NCBI GenBank assembly: GCA_012959395.1
Contig: DUDG01000030.1
Location: forward strand, 1 to 64,000
Length of the DNA: 64,000 nt
Direction: 5' to 3'
From: Flavobacteriaceae bacterium
GTDB lineage: Bacteria > Bacteroidota > Bacteroidia > Flavobacteriales > Flavobacteriaceae
Shown here one piece after another: positions 1-19,100 of this stretch (position 1 is the stretch's first letter; each line of letters starts with the position of its first letter). The notes under the pieces are model-generated. The model had not been told where the DNA came from, did no database searches, and was given only the letters and a program-made list of their open reading frames with translations. Position numbers and translations under genes: made by a program.

Positions 1-3000
1 CTACTTTTATAGTTTCACCAGTTTCATTAAAAGACGCATCTGGAACACCGTTTAAATCTACTTTTGACCATGAGTAATTATAAATTGAAGCAGTTGTTCC
101 CCCGTTCCAATTAGAAGTTCCAATTTCAACAGGTTGACCAGGGAGTGGGTTTAAACAGACAACCGTGTCATCGTCTATATCAAAACTAGGTAGTGGATTA
201 ACAGTAAAGGATATAGTAATTGTTTCTTGACAGCTGTTAAATAAAGGATTGGTGATAGTTACATTGATTTGATCTCCTGTAATTGCTGTGTAGTTGCTGC
301 CTAAAGTAATAGGACTTCCTGCTACACTAAATTCAAAATCAAAATCAGTAGGATTTTGAGTTTTTACACCACCGCTATTTGTAAGTAAGAGATCTTTAAT
401 ATTAGTCATATCAAAAACAGTTTTACCATCATCATTAGCTCCAGAAGCTACATCATCACAATCTTCTAGCTTATACTGACCAGGTACAGTAGGATCGGTA
501 GGGTAAGTTACAGGTTGTTGATAGACTTTAAAATCAATGGTTCCTTCACTAGAGCCAGGAGAGCTACTGGTATTAGTAGTATTATTAGTTAGAGTAACAG
601 TAATGGTTTGATCGTCAGTATTGAAGCTTAAAGGAAGTGTAGGGTCAAGCGTTACAGTTGTTCCTGTATCATTAACATAAGTGTATTCAACTTTAAACTT
701 AGTAGGGTCTTGTGATGTAGCTCCAGTAGGGTCTATAGTAAACTCACTAAATAATGAAGAGGTGTCAAATTCAGAGTACATGTCTAAAGGAGTTTGCTCA
801 TCACAAAGTTCTTGCAGAATAACATCATAAAACACAGGTCTTTTTTCAACATAAAGAGTAGCGATTTGATAAAGTCCATAGCAAGTAGCAATTGCAGTGG
901 TCACGCTATCTTCAATATAAGCCCAGATTTCTTGCTCCCATCTGTTTTCAGCGGCGTTAAAAGTAAATCCATTTTTACTTGGGTCAGTAGTAAAGTCAAC
1001 ACTAGTATTGATTTTGTCAGAAGAGATTAGAGCATCGTTTTCACTTCTATAAAAAGAAAATATTTTACCCGTAAATAAAGGCTCTGCAGCAATTAAATCA
1101 CTTTTAATGTTATTAAACAGACTTTTAGCAAAAGTTTCAATACCATCTTGACCTTGACCTGTTGGATCAGGGTCTGTTTCTATAAGATACGATTCAATTA
1201 AAGCATAAGCAGGGGGTAATGTTGTTTTAGCCCAAGCTAAATTAATTGTAATAGTTGAACTTTGACATCCTGTGCCAAGACTGGGTTGAGTACTTATTTT
1301 AGCAGTAACGGTTTCAGTAAGTCCAAGATTTACTAATGATGGAATAGTATAATTAGTAGGGTCAGTAATAATATTGCCAGAAGAATCAAGATATTCAAAA
1401 GTTTCGTTTGCGTAATTAGATGAAAAATTATCTTCTTGATCAGTTAAATTAAACACACCCAAATTACATTGATTAACATCTACTTCCGTTCTAAATAAAA
1501 CAGGTTTTTTATTTATAATTAATCTAGCGACTTGTTTAGTGTCAACACATGGCGTAGAGAGGTTTGTATTTTCTGTTCTAACCCAGATTTCTTGTTCCCA
1601 TCTATTTTCTGTAGTATTAAGACTAAATCCATTTTTAGCAGGATCTGTGACAAAATCAACAGAGGGATCAATTACATTTATGTTTGCTGTTGCATCAGCA
1701 TCAGATCTAAAAAAAGTAATGGTAGTACCAGCAGTATTAAACAAAGGTTCTGCAGTGATTAGATCTGTTTCAATATTAGCAAAAATAGACTTGTCAAAAG
1801 TCTCAATACCATCTTGACCTCCACCTAGAGGATCGGTAGATGTTTCACATGCTATTTCATCTATGGAAAGAAAAGATGTAGGAATCTCACAATATCCTGC
1901 TTTAAGTTCTATTGTTCCTGACTGTGAACATCCAACTCCTAATGATGGCTTGCTGCTTATATTAACTGTAATTAGTTCAATATTTGAAATATTCAAATCT
2001 GGTAATTGAAAATTGGTTGGATCACTAATTACGTTTCCACTAGAATCTATAAACTCAAATGTTTCGTTTTCACTATTTGATGATAATAAAGCCTGATAAG
2101 ATGTTAGATCAAAGATTAGGTTATTACATTGTTCAGACGAAATACTGTTGGTAAGTAAAAAAGGATAAGGATTAACAGTTAAATTAAAATTTGTTGCTAA
2201 AGAAATACAGCCAGATTCAATGTTTTTAACTCTAGCAAATATTTGTTGTGTTTGAACACTAGGAATGGAGGGATTATATGACGAATCTGGTGTATTTTGA
2301 TGAGTTTTATTTAGTCCTGTTAAGCTTGAGTCCTGAGCTTCGGATGGTGTAAGATGGTAAGATACTTCAAAGCCTGTATTTAAAGTATAATCAGCCATTG
2401 GTTGTCCATCTAAAATATGATTATCAAGTAAGCTTAAATCAAAAGTTGAAATTCCGTCATAATGATCACTCCCACCATCACATAAAGTAATTACAGGATC
2501 ATCTACATCAACAGACTTGGTACTTGGCAATGTAGCCTGAACTTTTAAAACAGCAGGGGTTGAAATAGTATTACATAAAGCTCCATTAGAATAAGTCATA
2601 ACTCTGTACTCCCATCCATCCATTGAAGCAGTAATGTTTAAAATTTTTAATTCACTATCAATAGTAAGTGGAGTAGTTAAAGGGTCATCCAATACATTTT
2701 CCCAGCCAGCTCCAGTACCTTTATTTACCAACCATTGATAGTAAGGGGTATATCCAGTTCCAGGATCTACAGTGACAAAAAATTCAGCATTTTGACCAGC
2801 TTGACAAACTTGATAATCTATAGGCTGAGTAGTAATTGCAACATTGGGAGCAGCAATGTCTAAAAACAAATAATTTGATGTAACAGGATCTGTTGGTGGT
2901 AAATCATAGTCACTGCTTGAATTTAAAAGAGCTATAATCCTTCCCCTGTTATCAACATCAGGATATTGAATAACCTCATCGGAGTTGGCCCCGTAATTTT

Positions 3001-5593
3001 TATCTCCATATATTCCATCATTGTTAGGATCAATATCAATTCTAGGACGATTATTTATAGGGGTATTATCAAAGTTGTTATCAGCTTCTATCACGTCATT
3101 ACATCCATCTCCATCACTATCTAAGTCATACATGTTCTGTTTTCCATCAGAGTCTGTATCTAAATTATAATCTAATATTTGAAATTTACCATGAAAGTTT
3201 GAGTCATCTACGGCTAAACTGCCAATAATATGACTAAATAGAAATCCTTCAATGTCATATGCGTAAAATTCAAACTTAGCATTAGGATCTAAAGGGTTAG
3301 TATTATATTTAAAAATAACTTTATTACCACTGAAACCATCAGGTGGAATGACAACAAATCCGCTACCATTATTTACTAATAATCTTTCCCCTGGATCAAT
3401 CACAGTTATATTTTTTTCAGAAGGATAGACTTCTATACTAAAACTTTCTTCAGAATTAATGACATGTGAAACAGAAGAATCTTCAGTAAAAAAAATATTT
3501 AATCTTTGATTTTCATCTAAAGCATCGTCATATTGTAATGGGTTTATTTTATAAGTTGCAGTTTCATTCACTCCAATTGGGACTATTGTCGATTTAAATG
3601 TTCCTGCCGAGGTCCCCTCAAAAGTACTTGTAGTTGTGGGGGAATATAATCCAGAAGTTTTAAAGCTAACGGTTGGTAAAATTAAATCAGGATTATAAAT
3701 ATCAGATAAGTCAATATTTGCACTTCCTAACGACTCTTCAACATTTAGAATTCCGTCATTATCTAAATCTAAATCAAGGTTATCAATAATACCATCTTCA
3801 TCAAAATCAGTAGGGCATATGCTAACTGTTTGTTCTTCTGAGAAGTAATCTTGATCGAAGCAAGCTAATTTTCCTCTTAATTTATAAGTACCCGGCTCAA
3901 TTGGTTTATAATTTTGGGAATCATTTGTATGAGTGGGATCGTTAGGATTTATAGGGGCATCAACATAGGCACTTGATGTAGTATCGTATTTTAGCCATTG
4001 GTATGAATCAAAACTTGCACTTGTAGTTAATTCTACATTTGAAACACCACTAGAACTTATACAAACTCCAAGAGGATTTATTGTTAAATTAGGGACAACT
4101 TGTGGGTTAGATACAAACCCTGAATAATAACTTCCAGCTGATGCAAAACCTCCAAAAGTTGCTGAAGCAAGATAAAGCTCTTTATCAGAAGTTATTTTAA
4201 TGTTTCCTTGTAAAAAAATTCCACTACTAATTGTTGAAGTTTCAGAAATTAAAAAATAAGTTTTGTAACCAGGTTTTCCAGCCACATCATTTGATAGTGA
4301 AGACAAAGGTATAAGACCAGCAGTTCCACTGTTATCAGCATATAAACTGCCATTTTTATATATTTTTAAATCTGCTCCATCTTCAGTTAAAATAGTTAAT
4401 GTACCCCCTTCAAACTTTTTATTTCCTATATAATCTATGTAAGGTATGTTGTCGATATTCCCTCTTGAAGAACAAGAAAGAGGAGGTACAAATACTAATC
4501 CTTGATTAGCTCTACCAGCAGTACCTCCTGTATCATACCCAATTCCTTGATAAGCAACTAATTTAAAAGAAGGATCCTGAGTTTTAATATAAATATTATG
4601 ATTGTTGGTATAGTCTGTACCTTCAAAAATCACATGTTCTCCAGTATTTAAAGTAGTATAAGGGGTCGAATTACCATCTTTATAAATTTCTGTTCCATCT
4701 CTATCTGCAATTAATATGACTTTTTCAATCTCATCTAAAGCATATCCTTTAACAAACACATACTCATCTCCTAATCTATCAATTCCAGTAATTTGATCCA
4801 TTCCATAATCCATGTTATTATACTCTCCGTTCATTAAAGATCCGCCAATTGATCCACAAGTAACAACTACAGGTTTTGGATCGGAACTTCCAAGAGCATC
4901 TTCAGAAATTACTAACGCCCCTATTAAGGCTTGTTTTATTACATCTGAATTAGCAAATAAAGGGTTATGTCCTAATATATAGGTTCCGTATTTTTGTAAA
5001 GTGATTTCAATAGGGAAGGATCCAGTATAATTTTCCAACACAGTTCCTGCAGGCAAATCATCAATGGTGATTTTAGTATTGTCCTCAGTTGCAAAAATAG
5101 ATATGAAATTTTCTCCTCCTGAACCAGGTGTATTGGTAAAAGTTGCGGTTCGAAATCTTGTCCCTAACGCAGCACTTCCTTTACTAACATAGGCGGCGGC
5201 ATGAAATTTCTGATTACTATTTGAAAGGGAACTATTTAACCTAAAACTGACATAAATTAAATTACTTGATTCAACGATGAATCCAGCATCAGTAAAAGTG
5301 CTATTAGAAGCAGTGCTGAAAACTTTCACTAATTGAGTGCTATTTCCAGAGCCAACAGAATATACCCAAGGATCATCATTAGAGATAGCTTTTGTTATCC
5401 AGTCAGATCTTGTGCCACCAATAGGCTTTATAGTAACGTTTATACTTCCTATACTGGGGGTAGAAATATATAGCCATTGATCCCCCACAGTCTCTCCAGT
5501 AATTGCAGGGATGTAATGAATTTTACTTAATTGAGCTGTGAGACTTAATGAGATTATAAAAAAAACTAAAACAAAAACTATCTTTTTTATCAT
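1..5593 (-). CDS. Giant secreted repeat protein with IgGFc-binding-like N-terminal region (partial; 3' end lies beyond the left edge)
   Basis: Open minus-strand frame from ATG at 5593 (MIKKIVFVLVFFIISLSLTAQLSKIHYIPAITGETVGDQWLYISTPS...), with signal peptide, IgGFc-binding-like region, DxDxDG Ca-binding-type motifs (DFDEDGIIDNLDLDLDNDGI), an Ig-like segment and repeated CDDG/FDTS units. Paralogous to the 5627-13111 protein. Absent from the ORF track because no stop falls in the window. Confidence 0.85.
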   Translation of the reverse strand, partial: MIKKIVFVLVFFIISLSLTAQLSKIHYIPAITGETVGDQWLYISTPSIGSINVTIKPIGGTRSDWITKAISNDDPWVYSVGSGNSTQLVKVFSTASNSTFTDAGFIVESSNLIYVSFRLNSSLSNSNQKFHAAAYVSKGSAALGTRFRTATFTNTPGSGGENFISIFATEDNTKITIDDLPAGTVLENYTGSFPIEITLQKYGTYILGHNPLFANSDVIKQALIGALVISEDALGSSDPKPVVVTCGSIGGSLMNGEYNNMDYGMDQITGIDRLGDEYVFVKGYALDEIEKVILIADRDGTEIYKDGNSTPYTTLNTGEHVIFEGTDYTNNHNIYIKTQDPSFKLVAYQGIGYDTGGTAGRANQGLVFVPPLSCSSRGNIDNIPYIDYIGNKKFEGGTLTILTEDGADLKIYKNGSLYADNSGTAGLIPLSSLSNDVAGKPGYKTYFLISETSTISSGIFLQGNIKITSDKELYLASATFGGFASAGSYYSGFVSNPQVVPNLTINPLGVCISSSGVSNVELTTSASFDSYQWLKYDTTSSAYVDAPINPNDPTHTNDSQNYKPIEPGTYKLRGKLACFDQDYFSEEQTVSICPTDFDEDGIIDNLDLDLDNDGILNVEESLGSANIDLSDIYNPDLILPTVSFKTSGLYSPTTTSTFEGTSAGTFKSTIVPIGVNETATYKINPLQYDDALDENQRLNIFFTEDSSVSHVINSEESFSIEVYPSEKNITVIDPGERLLVNNGSGFVVIPPDGFSGNKVIFKYNTNPLDPNAKFEFYAYDIEGFLFSHIIGSLAVDDSNFHGKFQILDYNLDTDSDGKQNMYDLDSDGDGCNDVIEADNNFDNTPINNRPRIDIDPNNDGIYGDKNYGANSDEVIQYPDVDNRGRIIALLNSSSDYDLPPTDPVTSNYLFLDIAAPNVAITTQPIDYQVCQAGQNAEFFVTVDPGTGYTPYYQWLVNKGTGAGWENVLDDPLTTPLTIDSELKILNITASMDGWEYRVMTYSNGALCNTISTPAVLKVQATLPSTKSVDVDDPVITLCDGGSDHYDGISTFDLSLLDNHILDGQPMADYTLNTGFEVSYHLTPSEAQDSSLTGLNKTHQNTPDSSYNPSIPSVQTQQIFARVKNIESGCISLATNFNLTVNPYPFLLTNSISSEQCNNLIFDLTSYQALLSSNSENETFEFIDSSGNVISDPTNFQLPDLNISNIELITVNISSKPSLGVGCSQSGTIELKAGYCEIPTSFLSIDEIACETSTDPLGGGQDGIETFDKSIFANIETDLITAEPLFNTAGTTITFFRSDADATANINVIDPSVDFVTDPAKNGFSLNTTENRWEQEIWVRTENTNLSTPCVDTKQVARLIINKKPVLFRTEVDVNQCNLGVFNLTDQEDNFSSNYANETFEYLDSSGNIITDPTNYTIPSLVNLGLTETVTAKISTQPSLGTGCQSSTITINLAWAKTTLPPAYALIESYLIETDPDPTGQGQDGIETFAKSLFNNIKSDLIAAEPLFTGKIFSFYRSENDALISSDKINTSVDFTTDPSKNGFTFNAAENRWEQEIWAYIEDSVTTAIATCYGLYQIATLYVEKRPVFYDVILQELCDEQTPLDMYSEFDTSSLFSEFTIDPTGATSQDPTKFKVEYTYVNDTGTTVTLDPTLPLSFNTDDQTITVTLTNNTTNTSSSPGSSEGTIDFKVYQQPVTYPTDPTVPGQYKLEDCDDVASGANDDGKTVFDMTNIKDLLLTNSGGVKTQNPTDFDFEFSVAGSPITLGSNYTAITGDQINVTITNPLFNSCQETITISFTVNPLPSFDIDDDTVVCLNPLPGQPVEIGTSNWNGGTTASIYNYSWSKVDLNGVPDASFNETGETIKV
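73..202. repeat. 130-bp near-identical copy shared with 6334-6463
   Basis: AGTAATTATAAATTGAAGCAGTTGTTCCCCCGTTCC...GTAGTGGATTAAC; one mismatch seen by eye (AACCGTG vs AACTGTG). Confidence 0.9.
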
Positions 5594-5626
5594 CAACTTA
5601 TATATACTATTATGTCAAATATATAT

Positions 5627-8600
5627 TTAATTTCCTCTTATAAGGCTAAAGTGTCCTTTAAATTCTCTTCCATCTTCTAGCAGTGTTCTAAACCAGTAAT
5701 CAGTTGCGGGCATAGGTTTTTCATTAAAGGTGCCGTCCCAGCCTGTACTCAAGGGATCTAATTCTTTTAGCAGCTTACCGTGTCTATCGAAGATATATAC
5801 TTTACTGTTTCCGTTAAATTCTTTTCTAATTCCTAGTATTTTCCATGTTTCATTTATGCCATCTCCATTAGGTGTAAAGTATTTTCTGTAACCAATAATA
5901 GACACGTCAATACTGGCAATGCCACATCCATAATCGTAGATGTAATAACTGTTTTTATCTCTAATGTACAAGGTATGTATCCCAGGTTTAATATCATTAA
6001 AAACAGGATCATCTTGATAGGACCCAAAAGCATCGTCTAAAGCAAACTCATATTTTCCAATACCTAAATCAGATACGTTATTAATTGTAATGGTATTGGC
6101 GTTGTCATTAGCAAGGTCTACTACTTGAATAAAATGGTCATATTCACTTTTTGTTATACTTCCGTCATCATCTAAATCAAGGCTTGCCATTTCTGATTCG
6201 CTTACCGTTATACTTTTTGTTCTAATGCAAAAGGTTACAGGATTTTCAACTATGACTGTATAGATTCCACCCTTATCTACTTTTATAGTTTCACCAGTTT
6301 CACTAAATGAAGGGTCACTGTCAAGGGTCCAGTAGTAATTATAAATTGAAGCAGTTGTTCCCCCGTTCCAATTAGAAGTTCCAATTTCAACAGGTTGACC
6401 AGGGAGTGGGTTTAAACAGACAACTGTGTCATCGTCTATATCAAAACTAGGTAGTGGATTAACCACAAACTCAATAGATTCGGTAATAACACAATCCAAA
6501 TTAAGCGGATTGGTTACAGTTGCTATTACGCTTTGTGTTTTGGTGTTAAACGGATTAGGTAGAGTAGCTGCTGTTAGGCCGACTCCTTTATCATCAGTAT
6601 AATTAAAGCTCACAGTGTAGTCTATTAAATTTTGAGAAAGTCCTGTGGCAGGATTAGTTAAAAGTGTATTCAATATAGTAGAGGTATCGAATTCAGAGTA
6701 ACCATCCTTATCATCAGCTCCATCATCGCAATGTGCAGCAATGGTGACTGGATAAGCTTCAGGTGAATCATCTACTATAAATTCAATTGTCGTTTTGTCA
6801 TAACACAATCCATCCGGATTTGTGATGTTTGGATAGGAAGGATTACGTTCAACTTTAATGGTGATGGTTTGAGAAGCTGTTTCGAAAGTTGAAGCAATGT
6901 TAGCAGCTGGTATTTCAGTTCCATCTTCATTATAATAAGTTATTGTAAGTATTGACTGATCTTGAATAACACCTGTATCAGGGTTTGTTAGCAAACTGGC
7001 AACAACATTACTTGTATCAAATGGATAAATACCATCTTGAGAGTCATTATCCAATGGACTATCACCGTCACATTGTCTTAAGATTGTTACTGGATATGCG
7101 ACAGGTCTTGGCTCTACATATAATTCTGCTACTTGCGCATAACCTAAACAAGTGAATTGTGTAATATCAATGTTAACAATCCTTGCCCATATTTCTTGAG
7201 TATTTGGATTTATATTTGTAAAATCTTGATCAATATCAATAGGGTTTTGACCAGTTAATCCGTCTTCAGAATTTGTGTGGAGAGTAACTCTAATTTTTTG
7301 GCTATCAAATTTTAGATTAGAAGATATTAATTTCTCTTTTATTTCTTTTAGAATAGTAGATGAAAAAACAGAAATTCCATCTTGATCATTTGCAGGTGAA
7401 TCATCACATACATTGTAGAAGGTACTAAAGTCTTGCATAAATGTATCAGAAATTTCACTTGCACCAACTGTAATTTCAATTTTTAATCTATCAGCTCCAC
7501 CTTGTGTTTTAGAAGTTCTTATACATCCATCTTCAGTAGTGATTTTAATCCATACCTCATCATAAAATGGAGAATTCTCATAATTTTCTGGATCATCAAT
7601 TTTTGTTAATAAATCAAGATCCTTATAATATTCAAATGTTTCATTTTGATAATTGTCCGAAAATAATAATTGTGATTCGGAGAGATCATGCAATGTAACT
7701 CCATCATTTTCTGCACCCTTACCATCATCACATTGTTCAATTTTAATTAAATTTTCTTTTATAACTGGAAGTGGAACAACAGTAAAGTCAATATCTTTTG
7801 TAATGACACAATTAGTATTAATTATATTAGTTACTGTTGCAACAACAGTTTGTGTTTTTGTATTAAATGGATTTGGTAATTGATGTGAATTTTGAGTACT
7901 ACCGTTTTCATCAACGTAGCTAAAAGAAACAGAATAATCATCTAGACTCTGCATTTGATTGCTATCGGGATTTGTAAGTAAAGTTTGGATAACGGATGAA
8001 GTATTAAATTCTGAATAACCATCAATATCACTAACTCCATCATCACATTGACTATTTATTAATACTTCATAAGATTCAGGACTATTATCAACTATAAATT
8101 CTAAAGTAGTTTCGTCATAGCATTTTTGTGGAGTATTATTTTCTACTTTAATTGTTATTATTTGAGACTCTGTCTCATAGATTTCGGGCAATACATTACC
8201 TATGAAATTATCATCTTTATCATAGTAATAAGTTGTAACATCTGTTTGGCCATTTAAAAGGGTATCTTGAATACCAGAAGTATCAAATGGGAAAATACCA
8301 TCTTGGGAATTTGTGTCAAGTGAGCTATCACCGTCACATTGTCTAGCTATAGTTACAGTGTTAGCAAATGGAAGGGCTTCAACAATTAAATCAAATGCTT
8401 CTCCTGTAATAAAACAACCTGGATATGAGCCACTTGTTTTAATTATCCTAAAGTAAATGGTTTGTTGATTATTTTCCTCAATAGTAAAATTATCTGGATT
8501 ATCAATTCCATTACTATTTAAATCATTTGCATCTGCAAGACTTGTGTGATATGTTACAACAAAGTCATTTAAAGATTGATTGTCTTCATCACTTGGATCA

Positions 8601-11600
8601 GTTGTTGCATTACCGGATCTTAACTCTTCTGTTCTATTTCCTAGGTTAAATTCTCCAACTCTACCATCTCTATTATCATCACAAAGAATTATATTATCAA
8701 CTTCAAAATAAATGGGTTTGGGTTTTACTATAAGCTTGAATGATGTCTCAGAAATAAAGCACCCTGTTGTATTATTCTCAACTCTTATAAAAATTTCTGT
8801 AGAATTAACAAACCAGTGAGGTTCAGTCGATGGTTTTATAGGATTTGTATAAGGAAAAGTAATAACATTTGTTGCAGTAGAGGCATCTTCAGATAATGTA
8901 TAGAATGTAACAGTATAATCATTTTCGCTTTGGTCTTGCCCTAATATTGATGGAATCAATGCATCAAAATCAGCTTTTGTTAGAGTTATACTTCCATTAT
9001 TTCCATCATCATCAGTGTTATCGCAAAACTCATAGTCAGGGATAGTTTTAGCAGTTGGATTTGGATTGACTGTTATTGTTTTTTCAATTTTACATACTAC
9101 ATCATTGGTTGTAACTTTTACAAAGTAGGTAGTTGTTTGAGTTGGACTTACATCTAATGAACCAGTTCCAGGATTATCAATTAGAACTTCATTCCCATCA
9201 TTATCATAATAACCCCAAACTATACTTGTAGATCCAGTATATTCAAAAAGTGGCCACGACTGCCCATTACCTATTGACATATCGTTCCATGCTTTTCCAT
9301 TATTTGAAAATTCAAATTGTCCATAGTGCTCACTACCCGCATCATTAGGTTCATCAGTCCACCAGTTAACATAGGTGTCCTTTAAATATGCACCATTAAC
9401 CCACTTCCATCCTGCATAATTTTGAGCTGCATTTCCAGGCTCAGCATATTCAGGATCATTAAGATCTTGATAAAGTCCTAGCCAAAAATATATCCCATCA
9501 TTTCCTGTTAATCCCATTGAATTTAGACCATTCCAAACAGTTGTTTCCATATCTGCATCTAAGATCACGTACATTCTTGCACTGGATGAACTATCCCCCG
9601 AATTGTAATTATCAGTAATTTGTTTTGCAGTTGTCCAATCTATTGGACTAAATCCAGTTTGACCAGTACCGGCTTGAATCATAAAATAGGTTTTTCCAAA
9701 GCTAGTATCCCATGTTACAGGCTCTCCATTATTTGTAATGAAAATAAGATTGTTTTCAGCAGAGAAATCAGCAGCAGTTTTTGCTATATTTTCAATTGTA
9801 AGTTTTGTAGTGTCACCAACACATACCACTTCATTTGAAGCATTTAATATTGGATTTGATATATAGGCTTTACTTTCAGTTCTACCTGAACTTATACAAC
9901 CTTCATTATCAATAAATTCAGCATAATAAAATTTATTATGTTCAAGTGGTGTCGTTGAATCTAAAGGAGTCGTTGCATTAACAGAGTCATACCAATAAAG
10001 TGTCAATGTAGCTCCATCATTTGAAGCAACTAGGTTGGAAACCTTTGGAGTATCTGTTTGACAAAAAGTTTGGATTTGAGATACAATAGGATTATCTGGG
10101 GACTCATTTACTGTAAGTGAAATATTTGAATCTGATCCTATATCACAAAGATATTCATCATCATTAACAAAAACTCTATACCTCCCATCCATTGCAGTTG
10201 TGATGTTAGTAATAGTTAATTTACTAGTAGTTGCTCCTGAATATGATCCTCCATCAGAAATATTTTCCCAATCCTTATCTATAAGGTTATAGAATTTCCA
10301 TTGATAATAAATAGTGGTTTGAGATGATGATGATGCAGTTACTTCAAATTCTATAGTATTGCCCTCACATCCGCTTGTTGATTGAGGTTGAGTTTGAATT
10401 CCTACAGGATCACTAGGTGTTTGAAACAAATAATTTCCAGCTGTATTTTTTTTAGGATCAATTTCATATCCCCCAGCAGTTTTATGAGTGACAACCAGCC
10501 CTCTATCATCAATAACTCCTGCAGTGTTTGTATTTAGCGGAGAAGTTCCTAAAATTCCATCACTATCGGGATCTCCTAAAAATCCTGGATATATCCATCC
10601 TGCTTCAATAACATCATTACATCCATCACCATCACTATCGGGATCATAATAATCATAAAGGGCGTCTGCATTAGCTGTATTAACATCAGAATTAATTTTA
10701 TAATCAACTACTTCTAGTTTTCCCGTAAACAAAGAAACAGAAGATGTCTCATCTGCGCCAGAACTAATTTTAAAGCCTTCAACATCATAAGCTAAGAACT
10801 GGTATGAAGGAAGAGTTGTGTCAGCTCTATATTTAAATCGAATTAGATTTGAAGTATATGTAGTTATGCCAGAGCTGAATGTTTCACCATCATAATTTGT
10901 ATCAATTAACAATTGATCATCTGGGTCTAGTAATGTTACATTTCTAGTGGATGGGAGTACTCTAATTTCAAAATAATCTCCAGCAGTAATTGTTTCTGGT
11001 TTTCCAGTGAATTTATAGTTAAGAGGCTCTAAAGTGTTTTTTATTTCAAAAGATAAAATATGCTTAGTGGAAGGAGCTAATTCAAATTGTAATTCTCCAG
11101 TAGCAGATCCAGATATTTTATTATCATTGTCAGATCCATCAGTTGTTATTTGTACAGATATATTTACAACATTATTATTAGAATCTTTAAATACTGGAGA
11201 AGCTATGTTAGACAAGTCTACATTTAAATTTCCTGCAGATTCAACAGAATTATAAATACCATCATTGTCTAAATCTAGATCTAAATTATCTATAACACCA
11301 TCATTATCTGAGTCAGCAGGACAAATACTAATAGGTATTATTCCTGAATATTGATCAAAGTTTAAACAGCTAATAACACCTTTTAATCTATATTCTCCCT
11401 CTATTTCTGGTATGTAAGATTCTGTATTTTCTGATGCTCCTGGTGCTACAATAAAATTCCCACTGGCATCTTTAATCTGCCAAACCCATGAATTAAATCC
11501 AGATGAATTTGTTATTTGCAGAGTGATATTGGAACCTATGACATTGCCTTGATCGTCTATTTGTAAACAATTTCCAAGAGAATTGATGCCTAAGTTTAGT

Positions 11601-13111
11601 TCAGCATTTGGGGGAGTTGCAAAACCTGCATAGAAACCACCACTAGTTGCAGCACCAGAAGTATTAAAATATGCTAAATATAACTCACTATCTGAAGTTA
11701 CTTTAACATTTCCAGCAAGATCTGTAACGGAGTAAGCCTTATAATCTGAATTACCTAATACTGTAATAGGCGTCAAAGAAGAAATATCGTAATCCCCATT
11801 TGTATCATTAATTGTAATTGTTGCAGTATTTTTTGTAACTATTGAAACACCAGCTTGATCATCATATGGATTATCTCCTATAAAATCAATTTCTGGAACA
11901 TTGTTAACATCATCATTAGCTTCTTCATCTAGTGGGGGCACAAAAAACATACCCTGATTAGCTTCAGAAGTTCCACTCCCACCAATACCTTGATAAGCAA
12001 AAACAGGATGATTTTTATCTTGAGTTCTGACATACATGGTGGCACCTTGATCTTGAGTTGAATATCTAGTACTTGAGATTAAATAGTAGTCTCCTGCATT
12101 AATTGTTACAATTGGATTTGTGTTGTCGTCATTTATAAAAATTTGAGTATTGTCTACAGCTCCAACAATTAGAGGAGTTTCAAGTTCTCCACCAGTCTCA
12201 CGGTTTTGTCCATTCCCTTTTACAAAAATGTATTCATGACCAACTCTATCAAGACCAACAATTTGATCAATACCATGGTCATGACCTCCACCATTTGAAG
12301 AAAATGTTCCACTTGATGACCCAACATTTACTACTATGGGCTTAGTTTTATCTTCAACTCCTGCAATAGTAACAGATTTTATTAGAGCTCCGATTAAAGA
12401 ATTTCGCGCTTCACCAATATCATTGCCTGATGGGTAATTTATAGCAAGAATAATACTTTCATATTGATTAAGTGTTTTTGTAAATGGGCCTAGATAAGTA
12501 TAATTTGATATAGTTGTTGCACTGACAGCATTTGGCAGTTCAAAAGATACAATTGTATTATCTTTAGTAGCCATTACAGAAACAAAACTTAAAGATGTAC
12601 CTTGTGAATTTTCAGTTTCTTTAGTGCCCATTGTCATCATTCCAGCTCTAAAATGTGTACCTAAAGAAGCATCTCCCTTACTTACTAATGCGCCTGCTTG
12701 TGCTCCAGCATTGTATCTTACAGAAGTATAAATTGGACAATCTGCTTCAATCAAAAAACCAGCTTTCAAAGCGACAGTTCCACCAGTTGTATCATGATCA
12801 ACAAAAAGTTGTGTTTCACCACCGCTTCCTATGTCATATCTTATTGGATTACTATTACTAAGAAGAGTATATGTTGTCGGAGTATCTCCATTAAGGGGAG
12901 TAATAGTAACCGTTACATTGTCAGTACTTGGAGTTGAAAGATATATAAATTGATCTTCTGGAACTGAACCTCCGCCCCCGGTGATTTTATTAGCAGTTAA
13001 GGGAGGAATGTAGTGTACCTTACTAATTTGAGATGATCCCAAATAGAAAAACATTAAAAAAAACAATCCCAAAAAAACCTTCTTTAACACAGGCAAGATT
13101 ATTATGATCAA
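5627..13111 (-). CDS. Giant T9SS type-B sorted surface/secreted protein: IgGFc-binding-like N-terminus, Ig-like and C-type lectin-like domains, CDDG repeats, CHU_C/gliding-motility-associated C-terminal domain
   Basis: 2494-aa ORF. N-terminal signal peptide; MFFVPPL...IDFIGDNPYDDQAGVSIVTK typical of IgGFc-binding N-terminal regions; C-terminus YFTPNGDGINETWKILGI...VYIFDRHGKLLKELDPLSTGWDGTFNEKPMPATDYWFRTLLEDGREFKGHFSLIRGN typical of T9SS type-B sorting domain (PF13585/TIGR04131). Confidence 0.92.
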   Translation of the reverse strand: MIIIILPVLKKVFLGLFFLMFFYLGSSQISKVHYIPPLTANKITGGGGSVPEDQFIYLSTPSTDNVTVTITPLNGDTPTTYTLLSNSNPIRYDIGSGGETQLFVDHDTTGGTVALKAGFLIEADCPIYTSVRYNAGAQAGALVSKGDASLGTHFRAGMMTMGTKETENSQGTSLSFVSVMATKDNTIVSFELPNAVSATTISNYTYLGPFTKTLNQYESIILAINYPSGNDIGEARNSLIGALIKSVTIAGVEDKTKPIVVNVGSSSGTFSSNGGGHDHGIDQIVGLDRVGHEYIFVKGNGQNRETGGELETPLIVGAVDNTQIFINDDNTNPIVTINAGDYYLISSTRYSTQDQGATMYVRTQDKNHPVFAYQGIGGSGTSEANQGMFFVPPLDEEANDDVNNVPEIDFIGDNPYDDQAGVSIVTKNTATITINDTNGDYDISSLTPITVLGNSDYKAYSVTDLAGNVKVTSDSELYLAYFNTSGAATSGGFYAGFATPPNAELNLGINSLGNCLQIDDQGNVIGSNITLQITNSSGFNSWVWQIKDASGNFIVAPGASENTESYIPEIEGEYRLKGVISCLNFDQYSGIIPISICPADSDNDGVIDNLDLDLDNDGIYNSVESAGNLNVDLSNIASPVFKDSNNNVVNISVQITTDGSDNDNKISGSATGELQFELAPSTKHILSFEIKNTLEPLNYKFTGKPETITAGDYFEIRVLPSTRNVTLLDPDDQLLIDTNYDGETFSSGITTYTSNLIRFKYRADTTLPSYQFLAYDVEGFKISSGADETSSVSLFTGKLEVVDYKINSDVNTANADALYDYYDPDSDGDGCNDVIEAGWIYPGFLGDPDSDGILGTSPLNTNTAGVIDDRGLVVTHKTAGGYEIDPKKNTAGNYLFQTPSDPVGIQTQPQSTSGCEGNTIEFEVTASSSSQTTIYYQWKFYNLIDKDWENISDGGSYSGATTSKLTITNITTAMDGRYRVFVNDDEYLCDIGSDSNISLTVNESPDNPIVSQIQTFCQTDTPKVSNLVASNDGATLTLYWYDSVNATTPLDSTTPLEHNKFYYAEFIDNEGCISSGRTESKAYISNPILNASNEVVCVGDTTKLTIENIAKTAADFSAENNLIFITNNGEPVTWDTSFGKTYFMIQAGTGQTGFSPIDWTTAKQITDNYNSGDSSSSARMYVILDADMETTVWNGLNSMGLTGNDGIYFWLGLYQDLNDPEYAEPGNAAQNYAGWKWVNGAYLKDTYVNWWTDEPNDAGSEHYGQFEFSNNGKAWNDMSIGNGQSWPLFEYTGSTSIVWGYYDNDGNEVLIDNPGTGSLDVSPTQTTTYFVKVTTNDVVCKIEKTITVNPNPTAKTIPDYEFCDNTDDDGNNGSITLTKADFDALIPSILGQDQSENDYTVTFYTLSEDASTATNVITFPYTNPIKPSTEPHWFVNSTEIFIRVENNTTGCFISETSFKLIVKPKPIYFEVDNIILCDDNRDGRVGEFNLGNRTEELRSGNATTDPSDEDNQSLNDFVVTYHTSLADANDLNSNGIDNPDNFTIEENNQQTIYFRIIKTSGSYPGCFITGEAFDLIVEALPFANTVTIARQCDGDSSLDTNSQDGIFPFDTSGIQDTLLNGQTDVTTYYYDKDDNFIGNVLPEIYETESQIITIKVENNTPQKCYDETTLEFIVDNSPESYEVLINSQCDDGVSDIDGYSEFNTSSVIQTLLTNPDSNQMQSLDDYSVSFSYVDENGSTQNSHQLPNPFNTKTQTVVATVTNIINTNCVITKDIDFTVVPLPVIKENLIKIEQCDDGKGAENDGVTLHDLSESQLLFSDNYQNETFEYYKDLDLLTKIDDPENYENSPFYDEVWIKITTEDGCIRTSKTQGGADRLKIEITVGASEISDTFMQDFSTFYNVCDDSPANDQDGISVFSSTILKEIKEKLISSNLKFDSQKIRVTLHTNSEDGLTGQNPIDIDQDFTNINPNTQEIWARIVNIDITQFTCLGYAQVAELYVEPRPVAYPVTILRQCDGDSPLDNDSQDGIYPFDTSNVVASLLTNPDTGVIQDQSILTITYYNEDGTEIPAANIASTFETASQTITIKVERNPSYPNITNPDGLCYDKTTIEFIVDDSPEAYPVTIAAHCDDGADDKDGYSEFDTSTILNTLLTNPATGLSQNLIDYTVSFNYTDDKGVGLTAATLPNPFNTKTQSVIATVTNPLNLDCVITESIEFVVNPLPSFDIDDDTVVCLNPLPGQPVEIGTSNWNGGTTASIYNYYWTLDSDPSFSETGETIKVDKGGIYTVIVENPVTFCIRTKSITVSESEMASLDLDDDGSITKSEYDHFIQVVDLANDNANTITINNVSDLGIGKYEFALDDAFGSYQDDPVFNDIKPGIHTLYIRDKNSYYIYDYGCGIASIDVSIIGYRKYFTPNGDGINETWKILGIRKEFNGNSKVYIFDRHGKLLKELDPLSTGWDGTFNEKPMPATDYWFRTLLEDGREFKGHFSLIRGN
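6334..6463. repeat. 130-bp near-identical copy shared with 73-202
   Basis: See partner repeat at 73-202; constant offset of 6261 nt. Confidence 0.9.
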
Positions 13112-13271: not shown

Positions 13272-15551
13272 ATGAAAAACAATAAAAATAGAAGAGAGGC
13301 CTTATTATACCATTCTAAACCGAAACCCGGAAAGATTGAGGTAATGCCAACGACAAAATATAATAGTCAAAGGGATTTGTCTCTAGCTTATTCTCCAGGA
13401 GTCGCTTTCCCGTGTTTGGAAATTGAAAAGGATCCATCAAATGTATATAAGTATACTTCAAAAGGGAATTTGGTTGCAGTAATAACCAACGGAACAGCTG
13501 TACTAGGCCTTGGTGATATTGGTCCCGAAGCCTCTAAACCCGTTATGGAAGGCAAAGCCCTTTTGTTTAAAATTTTTGCTGGAATAGATGTTTTTGATAT
13601 TGAAATTGATGCTAAGGATACAGAAAAATTTATAGAAACTGTTAAGAATATTTCGCCAACTTTTGGAGGAATAAATTTAGAAGACATCAAAGCTCCAGAA
13701 GCTTTTGAAATAGAAAAAAGACTTTCTGAAGAACTCGATATTCCTGTAATGCATGATGACCAACATGGTACGGCTATAATTTCATCAGCAGCTTTATTAA
13801 ATGCTTTAGATCTTGTAGAAAAAAAGATAGAAGATGTACAAATGGTTGTTTGTGGAGCAGGAGCAGCTGCAATTTCTTGTGCTAGAATGTATAAAGCATT
13901 TGGAATAAAACGATCAAATATTGTGATGACTGACAGCAAAGGAGTTATAAGAAAAGACAGAAAAGAACTATCCTGTGAAAAAGCTGAATTTGCTACTAGT
14001 AGAGATTTAAATTCTCTTGATCAGGCAATGATAGATGCGGATATTTTTATTGGCCTTTCTAGATCAAATATGGTTAATCCAGGCATGTTATTAAGTATGG
14101 CAAAAAACCCTATTGTATTTGCTATGGCTAACCCTGATCCAGAAATTGAGTACTCTTTAGCAATGAAAACAAGAGATGATATTATAATGGCAACTGGTCG
14201 TTCAGATTATCCGAACCAAGTAAATAACGTTCTCGGATTTCCTTTTATTTTTAGAGGAGCATTAGATGTAAAAGCTACTAAAATTAATGATCAAATGAAA
14301 ATGGCAGCAGTGAAAGCTTTGGCTTCATTAGCGAAAGAGTCAGTTCCAGAATTTGTCAATATAGCCTATGATAAAACTAAATTGACTTTTGGAAAAAATT
14401 ATATTATTCCTAAACCATTTGATCCAAGATTGATTACAAAAATTCCCCCTATGGTAGCTAAGGCTGCTATGGATTCTGGGGTAGCTTTAGAACCTATAGA
14501 ATGCTGGGATAAATATGAAGAAGAGTTACACAATAGATTAGGAAGCGATAAAAAAATAGTTAGACTATTAACTAATAGAGCTAAAACTTCTCCAAAAAGA
14601 ATAATATATGCCGAAGCAGATCATTTAGATGTTTTGAAAGCCGCACAAATTGTACATGAAGAAGGAATAGGATTTCCAATACTTCTAGGAAATAGAGAAG
14701 TAATAGAAGAATTAAAAAAAGAAATTGAATTTGATGAAGACCTTCCAATAATAGATCCAAAATCTAAAGAAGAATTCCCTAATAGAGAAAAATATGGTAA
14801 AAAATATTGGAAAATGAGAAAAAGGAAAGGGATTACTTATTTCAGAGCAGTAAATAAAATGAAAGAAAGAAACCTGTTTGCAGCAATGATGATATACAAT
14901 GGAGATGCGGATGCATTAATTTCAGGCTATTCTCGAAGTTATCCGGTAACTGTTAAGCCAATATTTGAAGTAATTGGCAGATCTCCAGGAGTAAACAAAG
15001 TGGCTACCACAAACTTAATGATTACTAGCAAAGGCCCTCTTTTTTTGTCTGACACTTCAATTAATATTGATCCATCTTCTAAAGATTTAGCTATAATTGC
15101 AAAGATGACTTCTGATACAGTTAAGATGTTTGGCTTGGAACCTATTATAGCTATGGTTTCATACTCTAATTTTGGCTCTTCTAATCATCCAATGGTGTTA
15201 AAAGTAAATGAGGCTGTAAATTATTTACATAGAAATTTCCCTAAACTTAATGTTGATGGACCTGTGCAATCAGATTTTGCTCTAAATAAAGAAATGTTAA
15301 AAGAAAAGTTTTCTTTTTCAAAGCTGTCTGGCAAGAACGTGAATACATTAATTTTTCCAAACTTAGATTCAGCAAACACTAATTATAAAGTTATAAAAGA
15401 GCTAGATAATGCGTTATCAATTGGTCCCATAATGATGGGTATGTCTAAAGCCGTACATGTAATTCAGTTAGGGGCAAGTGTTGAAGAGATGGTAAATATG
15501 TCAGCAGTTGCTGTAGTAGATGCTCAAAAAAAATCTAAAATTAAAAAATGA
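13272..15551 (+). CDS. maeB: NADP-dependent malic enzyme with C-terminal phosphotransacetylase-like domain
   Basis: 759 aa; malic enzyme motifs (YSPGVAFPCLEIEKDP, VMHDDQHGTAIISSAALLNAL, VVCGAGAAAISCARM) fused to a PTA-like domain (YAEADHLDVLKAAQIVHEEGIGFPILLGNREVI). Confidence 0.95.
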   Translation: MKNNKNRREALLYHSKPKPGKIEVMPTTKYNSQRDLSLAYSPGVAFPCLEIEKDPSNVYKYTSKGNLVAVITNGTAVLGLGDIGPEASKPVMEGKALLFKIFAGIDVFDIEIDAKDTEKFIETVKNISPTFGGINLEDIKAPEAFEIEKRLSEELDIPVMHDDQHGTAIISSAALLNALDLVEKKIEDVQMVVCGAGAAAISCARMYKAFGIKRSNIVMTDSKGVIRKDRKELSCEKAEFATSRDLNSLDQAMIDADIFIGLSRSNMVNPGMLLSMAKNPIVFAMANPDPEIEYSLAMKTRDDIIMATGRSDYPNQVNNVLGFPFIFRGALDVKATKINDQMKMAAVKALASLAKESVPEFVNIAYDKTKLTFGKNYIIPKPFDPRLITKIPPMVAKAAMDSGVALEPIECWDKYEEELHNRLGSDKKIVRLLTNRAKTSPKRIIYAEADHLDVLKAAQIVHEEGIGFPILLGNREVIEELKKEIEFDEDLPIIDPKSKEEFPNREKYGKKYWKMRKRKGITYFRAVNKMKERNLFAAMMIYNGDADALISGYSRSYPVTVKPIFEVIGRSPGVNKVATTNLMITSKGPLFLSDTSINIDPSSKDLAIIAKMTSDTVKMFGLEPIIAMVSYSNFGSSNHPMVLKVNEAVNYLHRNFPKLNVDGPVQSDFALNKEMLKEKFSFSKLSGKNVNTLIFPNLDSANTNYKVIKELDNALSIGPIMMGMSKAVHVIQLGASVEEMVNMSAVAVVDAQKKSKIKK

Positions 15552-16129
15552 TAACACAATTAAAAGGAAGATTAGTTGAAAAATCTCCTACTGATGTAGT
15601 TATAGACTGCAATGGAGTAGGATATATGATACATATTTCGTTAAATACTTTTTCCAAACTCACAGATTCAGAAAGCATTACTTTATTTACTCATTTACAA
15701 GTAAAAGAAGATTCTAATACTTTATTTGGATTTTATGAAAAAACGGAAAGAAATTTATTTAGACAACTTATTTCAGTTTCAGGAATTGGAGCTAGTACTG
15801 CTAGAACGATGTTGTCTTCTTTAACTCCAAAAGAAATTCAAAGCGCCATAATTTCAGGAAATGTTTCAACTATTCAATCTGTTAAAGGGATAGGTCTTAA
15901 GACTGCTCAAAGAGTAATTATAGACCTTAAAGATAAAGTAAGTTTAATTTCAGGAAATGATGAATTTATAGGAAATATTAGCAATACAAATCAAGATGAA
16001 GCGTTATCTGCATTAGAGGTGTTAGGGTATAACAGAAGGCACACTAATAAAGTTATCGAAACACTTTTAAATAATTCGCCAGAAATGTCTGTTGAAGAGT
16101 TAATAAAGAGTGCGTTAAATAAATTGTAA
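15548..16129 (+). CDS. ruvA: Holliday junction branch migration protein RuvA
   Basis: 193 aa; MITQLKGRLVEKSPTDVVIDCNGVGYMIHIS, LISVSGIGASTARTMLS and VKGIGLKTAQRVIIDLKDK helix-hairpin-helix motifs. Confidence 0.96.
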   Translation: MITQLKGRLVEKSPTDVVIDCNGVGYMIHISLNTFSKLTDSESITLFTHLQVKEDSNTLFGFYEKTERNLFRQLISVSGIGASTARTMLSSLTPKEIQSAIISGNVSTIQSVKGIGLKTAQRVIIDLKDKVSLISGNDEFIGNISNTNQDEALSALEVLGYNRRHTNKVIETLLNNSPEMSVEELIKSALNKL

Positions 16130-16133
16130 AGTA

Positions 16134-19100
16134 TTGGTTAGATTTCTTATAAAAAGAAAAGTATTTATTGTATCATTTTTCTTAGTTGTATTATATAATT
16201 ATAATATGCTAGGTCAAAAGGTTATTACTTTAGACACAATAGGAAATACTATTTATTTAGGAAAGTTTAAACTAATTCCTCCTTCTTTTTTTGTTTCAAA
16301 ATATACTTATGATCCTTTGATTGATAAATATATTTATACCACTAAAGCTGGAGAAATTGATGTTGGAATCCCATTAGTATTGACGCCTGATCAGTATAGG
16401 AAATTGATTAAAGAAAATAATATTAAAAAGTATTTTCAAGACAAACTTAGTCTAATTGAAGAAGAGAATTCTGAGAATTCTTCAAAATTAAAAAATTTAC
16501 TTCCAGATTTATATATTAATTCTAATTTTTTTGAAACTATTTTTGGAGGAAATGAAATTGAACTAACTCCACAAGGTTCTATTTCAATGGACATTGGAGC
16601 CAGATATCAAAAAAGCGACAATCCCTCATTTTCAAGTAGAAATCAAAGTAATATAAGTCTTGATTTTAATCAAACAATTAGCTTGAGTATGAATGGTAAA
16701 ATAGGTGAAAGATTAACTATAAGTTCAAATTATGATACTCAGTCAACTTTTGACTTTCAAAATTTATTAAAATTAGATTACACACCTACAGAAGATGATA
16801 TTATTCAAAAAATTGAACTAGGTAATATTAGCATGCCTCTAAGTGGATCTTTAATTTCTGGCGCACAAAGTTTATTTGGTTTCAAAACCGAATTAAAATT
16901 TGGAAACACTAAAGTAGTCACTGTTTTATCTGAACAAAGATCTCAATCTCAAACAGTAGTTGCTAAAGGAGATGGTAGCTTTGAAGAATTTTCAATATAC
17001 CCATTGGATTACGATGAAAATAAACATTTTTTTTTAGGTCAGTACTTTAGAGATAAGTATGATCAAACTCTTAAAACATTCCCTTATTTAAATACACAAA
17101 TAAAAATTACAAGAATAGAGATTTGGGTTACAAATAGAACCAACCAAACTCAAAATGTAAGAAATGTTTTAGGGTTACAAGATCTAGGAGAATCAAATCC
17201 TGAGAAAACTAAATTGGATGAATTTTATCCAAATTTTATAACTAAACCTGGATTAAATGTTTATCCAGATAATTCAGTAAATAAATTAGATCCTGAAACC
17301 ATAGATAATGGATTGTTAAATGCTTCAATTAGAGATATTTCTAAGGTAAAAGAAGGTTTTGGATCTATTTCTAATTTAGTAAGCGAGGGGAATGATTATT
17401 CTGTTTTAGAAAATGCAAGAAAGTTAGAATTAAATGAATATAAATTACATGATAAGTTGGGATATATATCATTAAATCAACCCCTTAATAATGATGAAAT
17501 ATTAGCTGTAGCTTATCAATTTACTGTTGGTGGAGAGGTTTTTCAAGTGGGAGAGTTTGCAAATGATGGAATAGATGCCACTAGCTTTACGCAACAAAAT
17601 AATGACCCGCAAATTTCAAATAACAGTTTAATAGTAAAATTATTAAAAAGTAGTTTAACTAATATCAATCAGCCAGTTTGGGATTTGATGATGAAAAATA
17701 TTTATTCTATAGGTTCATATCAAATTAACAAAGACGACTTTAAATTAAATATTTTCTATACTAATCCATCTCCATTAAATTATATTGAGCCAGTAGATCC
17801 TCTAATTTGGCCTAGTTCAATTGAAGGTAAAACATTATTGTCTCTTTTTAATTTTGATAAGTTAAACATGAATAATGATATCCAAAATGGTGGTGATGGA
17901 TTTTTTGATTTTGTTCCAAACATTACAATCGATTCAAATAATGGGTTAATTATTTTTACATCAATAGAACCTTTTGGAGAATATTTATTTGAAAAATTAA
18001 AAGACGTAAATTCTTCTGGTGAGAGTTATAATAATAAAGATTCTTACAATTTAAACCAGAAAAAATTTGTTTATAAAGAAATTTATGATTTATCTAAAAC
18101 TGGAGCTGAAGAAAATATAGAAAAGAATAAATTTCAAATTAAAGGATCTTATAAAACATCTGGCGAGGTTGGAGGAATTGCTATTGGACAGTTTAATGTT
18201 CCCAGGGGGTCTGTAAAAGTAACAGCTGGAGGAAGACTTCTCCAGGAAGGAACGGATTATACAGTTAATTACCAAGCGGGAAGAATCCAAATATTAGACG
18301 AAACTTTAAAAAATTCTAACATTCCTATAGAAATCTCAACTGAGAGTAATTCTTTTTATTCTCAGCAAAAGAAAAGCTTTTCAGGAATTAATATTGAACA
18401 TAAGTTTAATGATAATTTTATTATAGGCGGATCACTTATGAATCTAAGTGAAAGATCAATTACTCAAAAGGCTAATTATGGAGTTGAACCAGTAAACAAT
18501 ACGATGATAGGATTTAATGGCATGTATTCAGCTGAAGTCCCCTTTTTAACTAGGTTTGCTAATAAATTACCTAATGTTAGAACAGAAGCACAATCGTTTA
18601 TTTCATTAAAAGCTGAAGTGGCTTACCTTCACTCAGGTACTCCTAAAAATTCAGGATATGAAGAAATTGCCACTGTATATGTTGATGACTTTGAAGGTTC
18701 AGAAACAAATATTGATATAAAAGACACTTTTTCCTGGAATCTTTCAAGTGTGCCAGAAAATGTTAATGGATCAGATTTTGGAATTAATGATTTAAGACTT
18801 GGACATTATCGAGCTAAATTGGCATGGTACAATATTGATCCAATTTTTTACACAAGACAAAGACCAAGTGGAATTGATGATAATGAATTATCCAAAAACG
18901 AAACTAGAAGGATCTTTATTGAAGAAATTTTTCCTCAACAAGATTTAATTGAGGGTCAATCTAGAATTCAAAACACTTTAGACCTTAGTTATTACCCAGA
19001 AGAAAAAGGGCCATATAACAATAATTTAAACACTACTTTTAGTCAATCACCAAAAAAGAATTGGGCAGGAATAACTAGAAAAATTAATTCTACTAATTTT

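Follow-up and report, generated by a model that had tools for sequence, protein, structure and literature searches.

The two giant genes that open the window, by which we mean the analysed 64 kb at the start of contig C30 in a Flavobacteriaceae MAG (G000; 1.49 Mb, 68% complete), are best explained as encoding surface adhesins of a kind whose heads vary at a genomic slot beside sprA and whose tails are, in relatives, homogenised by gene conversion, an arrangement compatible with the use of one shuttle; we put the probability of this reading at roughly 0.55. The products would be long surface proteins with a binding head on a beta-sandwich stalk, the head region of the right gene combining an IgGFc-binding-like domain with what appears to be a Ca2+-type lectin, and with a type B export signal that is seen in the right gene only. 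They would leave the cell through SprA, be collected by a PorP/SprF shuttle and be held by that shuttle at the outer membrane. The slot of this genus lies between maeB-ruvA-sprA and a PorP/SprF gene, with its heads replaced between species, and in relatives that carry a second, shuttle-less copy, gene conversion copies the stalk and signal between the genes and may in this way keep different heads compatible with one shuttle. We entertain more tentatively a stronger version, a modular system in which slot heads are exchanged, conversion keeps the tails identical because one dedicated shuttle reads them all, and the tail of the shuttle decides whether an adhesin rides the gliding track or stands still.

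Two large minus-strand ORFs follow one another head-to-tail (Table 1), as a preliminary description of this DNA had stated, and much of the domain content that it had read from the translations was recovered. Matches to the IgGFc-binding profile PF17517 reached 122.3 bits in the right gene and 99.9 bits in the left, against a curated cut-off of 25.6 bits. A whole-ORF hmmscan of the left gene listed no domain at all; its first 565 aa alone scored 99.8 bits for PF17517, and the miss looks like a filter effect, an example of how scanning a long repetitive ORF in full can overlook a domain. Both N-termini, read by eye, are hydrophobic and resemble Sec signal peptides, ending ...SSQ in the right gene and ...TAQ in the left, and DxDxDG motifs follow the head in both translations. 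Ig-like segments, reported earlier for both genes, were recovered in the right gene, where PF19081 exceeds its cut-off and PF13927 falls below. The CDDG...FDTS-type arrays were confirmed by iterated HMM searches, which counted nine units for the right gene and seven for the left one, the first right-hand unit being weak and overlapping the lectin domain; the units carry two conserved cysteines. One unit was modelled as a beta-sandwich (pLDDT 93.6), and since its comparison with the PDB gave no match at E ≤ 0.001 (best 0.063), nothing beyond "beta-sandwich" can be said of it. The right gene does end in a type B T9SS domain, with TIGR04131 at 110.7 bits and CHU_C (PF13585) at 45.3 bits, both over cut-off. 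Its tail also contains an EF-hand-like loop, DLDDDGSITKSEY (window 6089-6208, minus strand; residues 2302-2341), with a weak NCBIfam lanmodulin match (E = 0.0038).

Two features had gone unmentioned in the preliminary description: the C-type lectin domain of the right gene and the presence of sprA three genes away. A profile built from five members of the lectin domain matched Mincle and DC-SIGN in the PDB (E = 4.6e-9), and the EPN and WND motifs are invariant in all five. Pfam Lectin_C matched three of these members and missed the one from the right giant, which, searched alone, gave a DC-SIGN match at 0.0011. The domain thus resembles C-type lectins of the DC-SIGN, Mincle and mannose-receptor kind, from which it differs in being bacterial and set within a T9SS giant; it is predicted to be of the Ca2+ type and to bind sugar. 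The PF17517 heads of both giants and of two Flavobacterium relatives are about 40% alike; their profile matched no solved chain in the PDB, and a structure model (pLDDT 54) was too poor for a structural search. Like FCGBP and its bacterial relatives, both giants carry this domain well above the curated cut-off; IgG binding is not implied for these heads. Literature searches found no paper on IgGFc-binding domains together with the T9SS, and nothing on binding by bacterial PF17517 proteins. On the whole, the domains support the earlier picture of surface-adhesin-like T9SS giants with IgGFc-binding-like heads, and from them we infer adhesion itself.

Table 1 Features of the giant genes and the flank of the slot, in window coordinates.
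Feature	Position	Strand	Remarks
Left giant gene, 1865 aa read, no stop	1..5596	-	Cut by contig start
Left head, IgGFc-binding-like (PF17517)	4451..5179	-	99.9 bits
Left stalk, seven units	194..2512	-	Residues 1029-1801
Left copy of near-identical patch, just before contig start	73..202	-	99.2% identity to right copy
Right giant gene, 2494 aa, complete	5627..13111	-	Start TTG 13111, or GTG about 13090 by comparison with relatives
Right head, IgGFc-binding-like (PF17517)	11675..12682	-	122.3 bits
Right Ig-like segment (PF13927)	10169..10399	-	Score below curated cut-off
Right Ig_7 domain (PF19081)	9860..10099	-	Over cut-off
Right C-type lectin domain, EPN and WND motifs	9077..9634	-	About residues 1160-1345
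Right stalk, eight CDDG...FDTS-type beta-sandwich units	6455..9058	-	Residues 1352-2219
Right copy of 130-nt near-identical patch, common to left gene	6334..6463	-	99.2% identity
Right type B T9SS sorting domain (TIGR04131 / CHU_C)	5636..5896	-	Profile matches
maeB (malic enzyme), slot flank	13272..15551	+	
ruvA, slot flank	15548..16129	+	
sprA, T9SS outer-membrane translocon	16134..23270	+	TIGR04189 2576 bits; PF14349

Contig C30 starts at the window edge, which is why the left gene is cut there. Its end was sought on the other contigs of the genome through the expected PorP/SprF neighbour and was not found in this 68%-complete MAG. A type B CTD fragment on contig C13 (L048, 6951-7169, minus strand; one internal TAA, TIGR04131 75.7 bits) was rejected as the missing end, since it is a broken scrap, sits inside a third type B locus and differs in CTD type. 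The left product, too, would be exported via the T9SS, on a tail presumed to lie beyond the contig start. It is improbable, in our view, that we are dealing with a duplicate in decay or cut short, devoid of an export signal, and with a tandem that is a passing duplication: although the end of the left gene is unseen and type B genes do decay elsewhere in the same genome (the C13 scrap), its 1865 codons are open without a stop, its L-type head is found at 60% identity in G014, and the two heads represent different, old types, which a recent duplicate would not.

The giants are separated by 30 bp if the left gene starts at its TTG (5596) and by 33 bp if it starts at its ATG (5593). No terminator-like site was found within this gap, and promoter-like sites around the 33-bp gap were no more frequent than expected by chance. 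Given the 33-bp gap and the lack of a terminator-like site, co-transcription of the two genes is plausible, and to this extent the earlier proposal of a co-transcribed pair stands. Pairing as a unit does not: among the congeners examined, the right/left tandem was seen in none besides the source genome, the two heads are of different types, and the content of the slot varies even between sister species. A conserved tandem pair was therefore rejected, and, since fillings vary between species, the tandem of the window is one of several slot fillings. Head-to-tail runs of PF17517 genes do occur in other families of the order (five genes in G040, three in G053 and two in G042; L104, L105 and L106), with C-termini that are not of the giants' type.

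The slot itself can be traced across the genus. In the window, maeB, ruvA and sprA run divergently from the right giant. In five relatives (G010, G015, G016, G011 and G017) the slot giant is likewise divergent from these genes and convergent with a PF11751 (PorP/SprF) gene; a giant adjoins maeB also in G003, G004, G008, G012, G013, G018, G019 and G020, and in G002, G005, G006, G008, G010-G013 and G015-G018 the giant, or its CTD end, has a PorP/SprF gene as neighbour. A PF11751 search of the incomplete source MAG returned no PorP/SprF gene, the far end of the slot being unseen here. Fillings across the genus comprise at least four head types, or none, as in G009, where the slot is empty, and many genomes carry a second giant copy elsewhere, at an unlinked locus that has no shuttle gene. 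Genes for alpha-L-fucosidase and sulfatase occur near the slot in relatives (L053, 658-1983, minus strand; L066, 10923-12335, minus strand). Beyond the genus, maeB-ruvA lies upstream of sprA in 18 of 20 other genera of the family, and in none of the 20 was a related giant or a PorP/SprF gene found beside maeB-ruvA; a family-wide slot is thus not supported, and the variable cargo slot looks specific to this genus.

Heads in this slot have been replaced between species. In the head tree each type is well supported, the joins among types being less sure and including long branches. Type m (13 rows) sits in the slot in every case with a readable flank, type a (8 rows) at the unlinked second locus, type R comprises the right gene of the window and G004, both in the slot, and type L the left gene and G014. 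The two heads of the window are therefore of different types, and their placement departs from the sprA tree: sprA groups G000 with G011 (100/99) and G004 with G014 (100/100), whereas the right head of G000 goes with G004, its left head goes with G014, and the slot head of G011 is of the m type. Lectin-headed giants adjoin maeB in G014 and G002. At its C-terminal end (the last 165 aa) the right gene clusters with G010, G005, G002, G015 and G006 (100/99) and not with the sister G011, so that it was probably replaced in the G000 lineage.

The evidence for homogenised tails comes chiefly from two relatives with both copies. The two copies of G011, one in the slot and one at the second locus, lie on different contigs in different syntenic settings and are 99.7% identical over 2323 nt, a stretch that continues about 26 nt beyond the stop; in G016 the corresponding stretch is 2346 nt at 90.6%, with the last 1200 nt at 99-100%. 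Overall the shared block reaches 16-26 nt past the stop codon. The a- and m-type copies differ at 1 codon in the last 700 in G011 and at 5 in the last 430 in G016, whereas between their heads 639 of 844 codons are changed in G011 and 656 of 860 in G016 (about 75%), and the orthologous tails of the two genomes differ at 238 of 429 codons (55%), 144 of these 238 differences being silent. In both genomes, then, the tails of paralogues are more alike than those of orthologues and stand beside diverged heads. Because heads of type a from different species make up one clade and those of type m another, both copies must be older than the species, and near-identical tails on copies of that age imply that the tails have been copied since, that is, by gene conversion. 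To judge from these alignments, the stalk and export signal of the G011 and G016 copies are undergoing ongoing gene conversion. Five further genomes point the same way, with contigs of both loci that have common ends: G008 (141 nt, 100%), G012 (591 nt, 98%), G013 (99 nt, 100%), G018 (144 nt, 99%) and G017 (109 nt, 97%). Within the window pair, the sign of conversion consists of the short 130-nt patch, which is 99.2% identical between right and left, where the closest of the other species reaches 77-81% and the remainder of the pair mostly 45-60%. That contig C30 breaks at this patch would fit a longer identical stretch beyond. A literature search for gene conversion in connection with the T9SS in flavobacteria led to a paper in which the term occurs in the reference list only.

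One may object that the identical tails of the relatives are assembly errors, in the form of collapsed or copied repeats. Many contigs of the genus do end inside these tails, and one contig of G003 (C26, L066, 1-20000) links, by way of a giant gene, the flank upstream of the second locus with the flank downstream of the slot, the result either of recombination across the tail that both loci share or of a chimeric assembly. This explanation is nevertheless very improbable, as the contigs of G011 and G016 are few and long, each tail is bordered on both sides by the syntenic flanks of its own locus, and the G016 copies are not fully identical, differing at the 5 of 430 codons given above and at more further upstream. 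A rather unlikely alternative, to which we give more credence than to assembly error, is that the tails are homogenised merely as long, similar repeats that recombine, without selection for fit to a shuttle, in proteins that are still T9SS adhesins. The converted block covers about 700 aa and runs on past the stop, far beyond the 85-aa signal, and could thus have arisen by such recombination; moreover, two neighbouring type B genes at another locus of G016 (C3, L099, 5610-7631 and 10359-17810, minus strand; 674 and 2484 aa) have tails identical over at least 400 codons. Against this, the heads are also 60% identical in nucleotides and yet remain unconverted, type B genes that stand in tandem in Flavobacterium and in G026 have similar repeats and are not homogenised (52-63% nt identity over the last 90-200 codons), and cargo and shuttle go missing together.

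The last point bears on the sharing of a shuttle. In G011 and G016 a PorP/SprF gene stands beside the slot copy and none is near the second-locus copy. G009 has neither PF17517 giants nor a PorP/SprF gene anywhere, retains GldJ, and keeps at the second locus, where relatives carry a giant, a CTD scrap of about 54 aa (C45, L061, 1599-1757, minus strand), a deletion scar. At the locus of the C13 scrap, relatives carry a third type B giant with a PorP/SprF gene, both gone in G000. Cargo and shuttle are therefore jointly absent in two places, which are few cases and drawn from incomplete MAGs. Type B proteins of F. johnsoniae depend on a PorP/SprF shuttle, to which they remain bound; three orphan cargo proteins use one common shuttle, and one CTD was accepted by the shuttle of a 68%-identical cargo and not by those of 43%- or 26%-identical cargo (PMC12618676, PMC9143113); the conserved motifs are necessary, not sufficient, for recognition by type B shuttles (PMC12618676). 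These observations support, as a proposal, that tail conversion would keep orphan cargo readable by the slot shuttle.

The shuttles themselves differ in their tails. Those of the slot end in DCDCF or ECDCF in one clade and in NINLFN or NIDLFN in the other, and a second shuttle type ends in PCGCK (Cys-X-Cys). In the genomes compared, the type of shuttle tail agrees with the type of CTD, but both also follow the two sprA clades, which weighs against our preferred reading. In F. johnsoniae, the Cys-X-Cys tail of SprF binds the moving GldK track (PMC12635249). The Cys-X-Cys ends of one slot-shuttle clade and of the second shuttle type (DCDCF, PCGCK) are like this tail, whereas the slot shuttles of the other clade lack the Cys pair; a GldJ gene is present in the source genome and its congeners. 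By analogy, the adhesins of Cys-X-Cys-tailed shuttles may move and those of NINLFN- or NIDLFN-tailed shuttles may stand still.

The giants are otherwise similar to SprB-SprF and the other type B CTD and PorP/SprF pairs of F. johnsoniae (PMC9143113, PMC12618676, PMC12635249), in being, by prediction, large cargo of the Sec and T9SS type B route, in having a PorP/SprF gene as neighbour in relatives and in including orphan cargo. Unlike in those pairs, the shuttle gene of the slot is convergent rather than directly downstream in the same direction, the heads are IgGFc-like and lectin domains that vary by species at one slot, and the tails are homogenised between unlinked copies.

In P. gingivalis, the products of rgpA, kgp and hagA are PorV-dependent, LPS-linked type A cargo. 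They resemble the giants as T9SS proteins that join different N-terminal parts to identical repeats of the adhesin region, and these identical repeats break assemblies (PMC5266723), just as, on account of homogenised tails, MAG contigs of the present genus often break inside the giant genes. They differ from the giants in that two have protease heads and one general shuttle serves all, so that the matching of shuttles is not at stake.

The domains, the secretion route and the pairing with a shuttle are of kinds already known; as far as the literature searched shows, what is new is a slot next to sprA whose heads can be exchanged, and unlinked copies whose type B tails are homogenised. With signals copied from locus to locus among the cargo genes and with two types of shuttle tail, the genus provides natural matched and mismatched pairs for tests of shuttle recognition. 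The arrangement also suggests how a small-genome bacterium (assemblies of 1.1-1.9 Mb) may change its adhesion targets with its export machinery unchanged.
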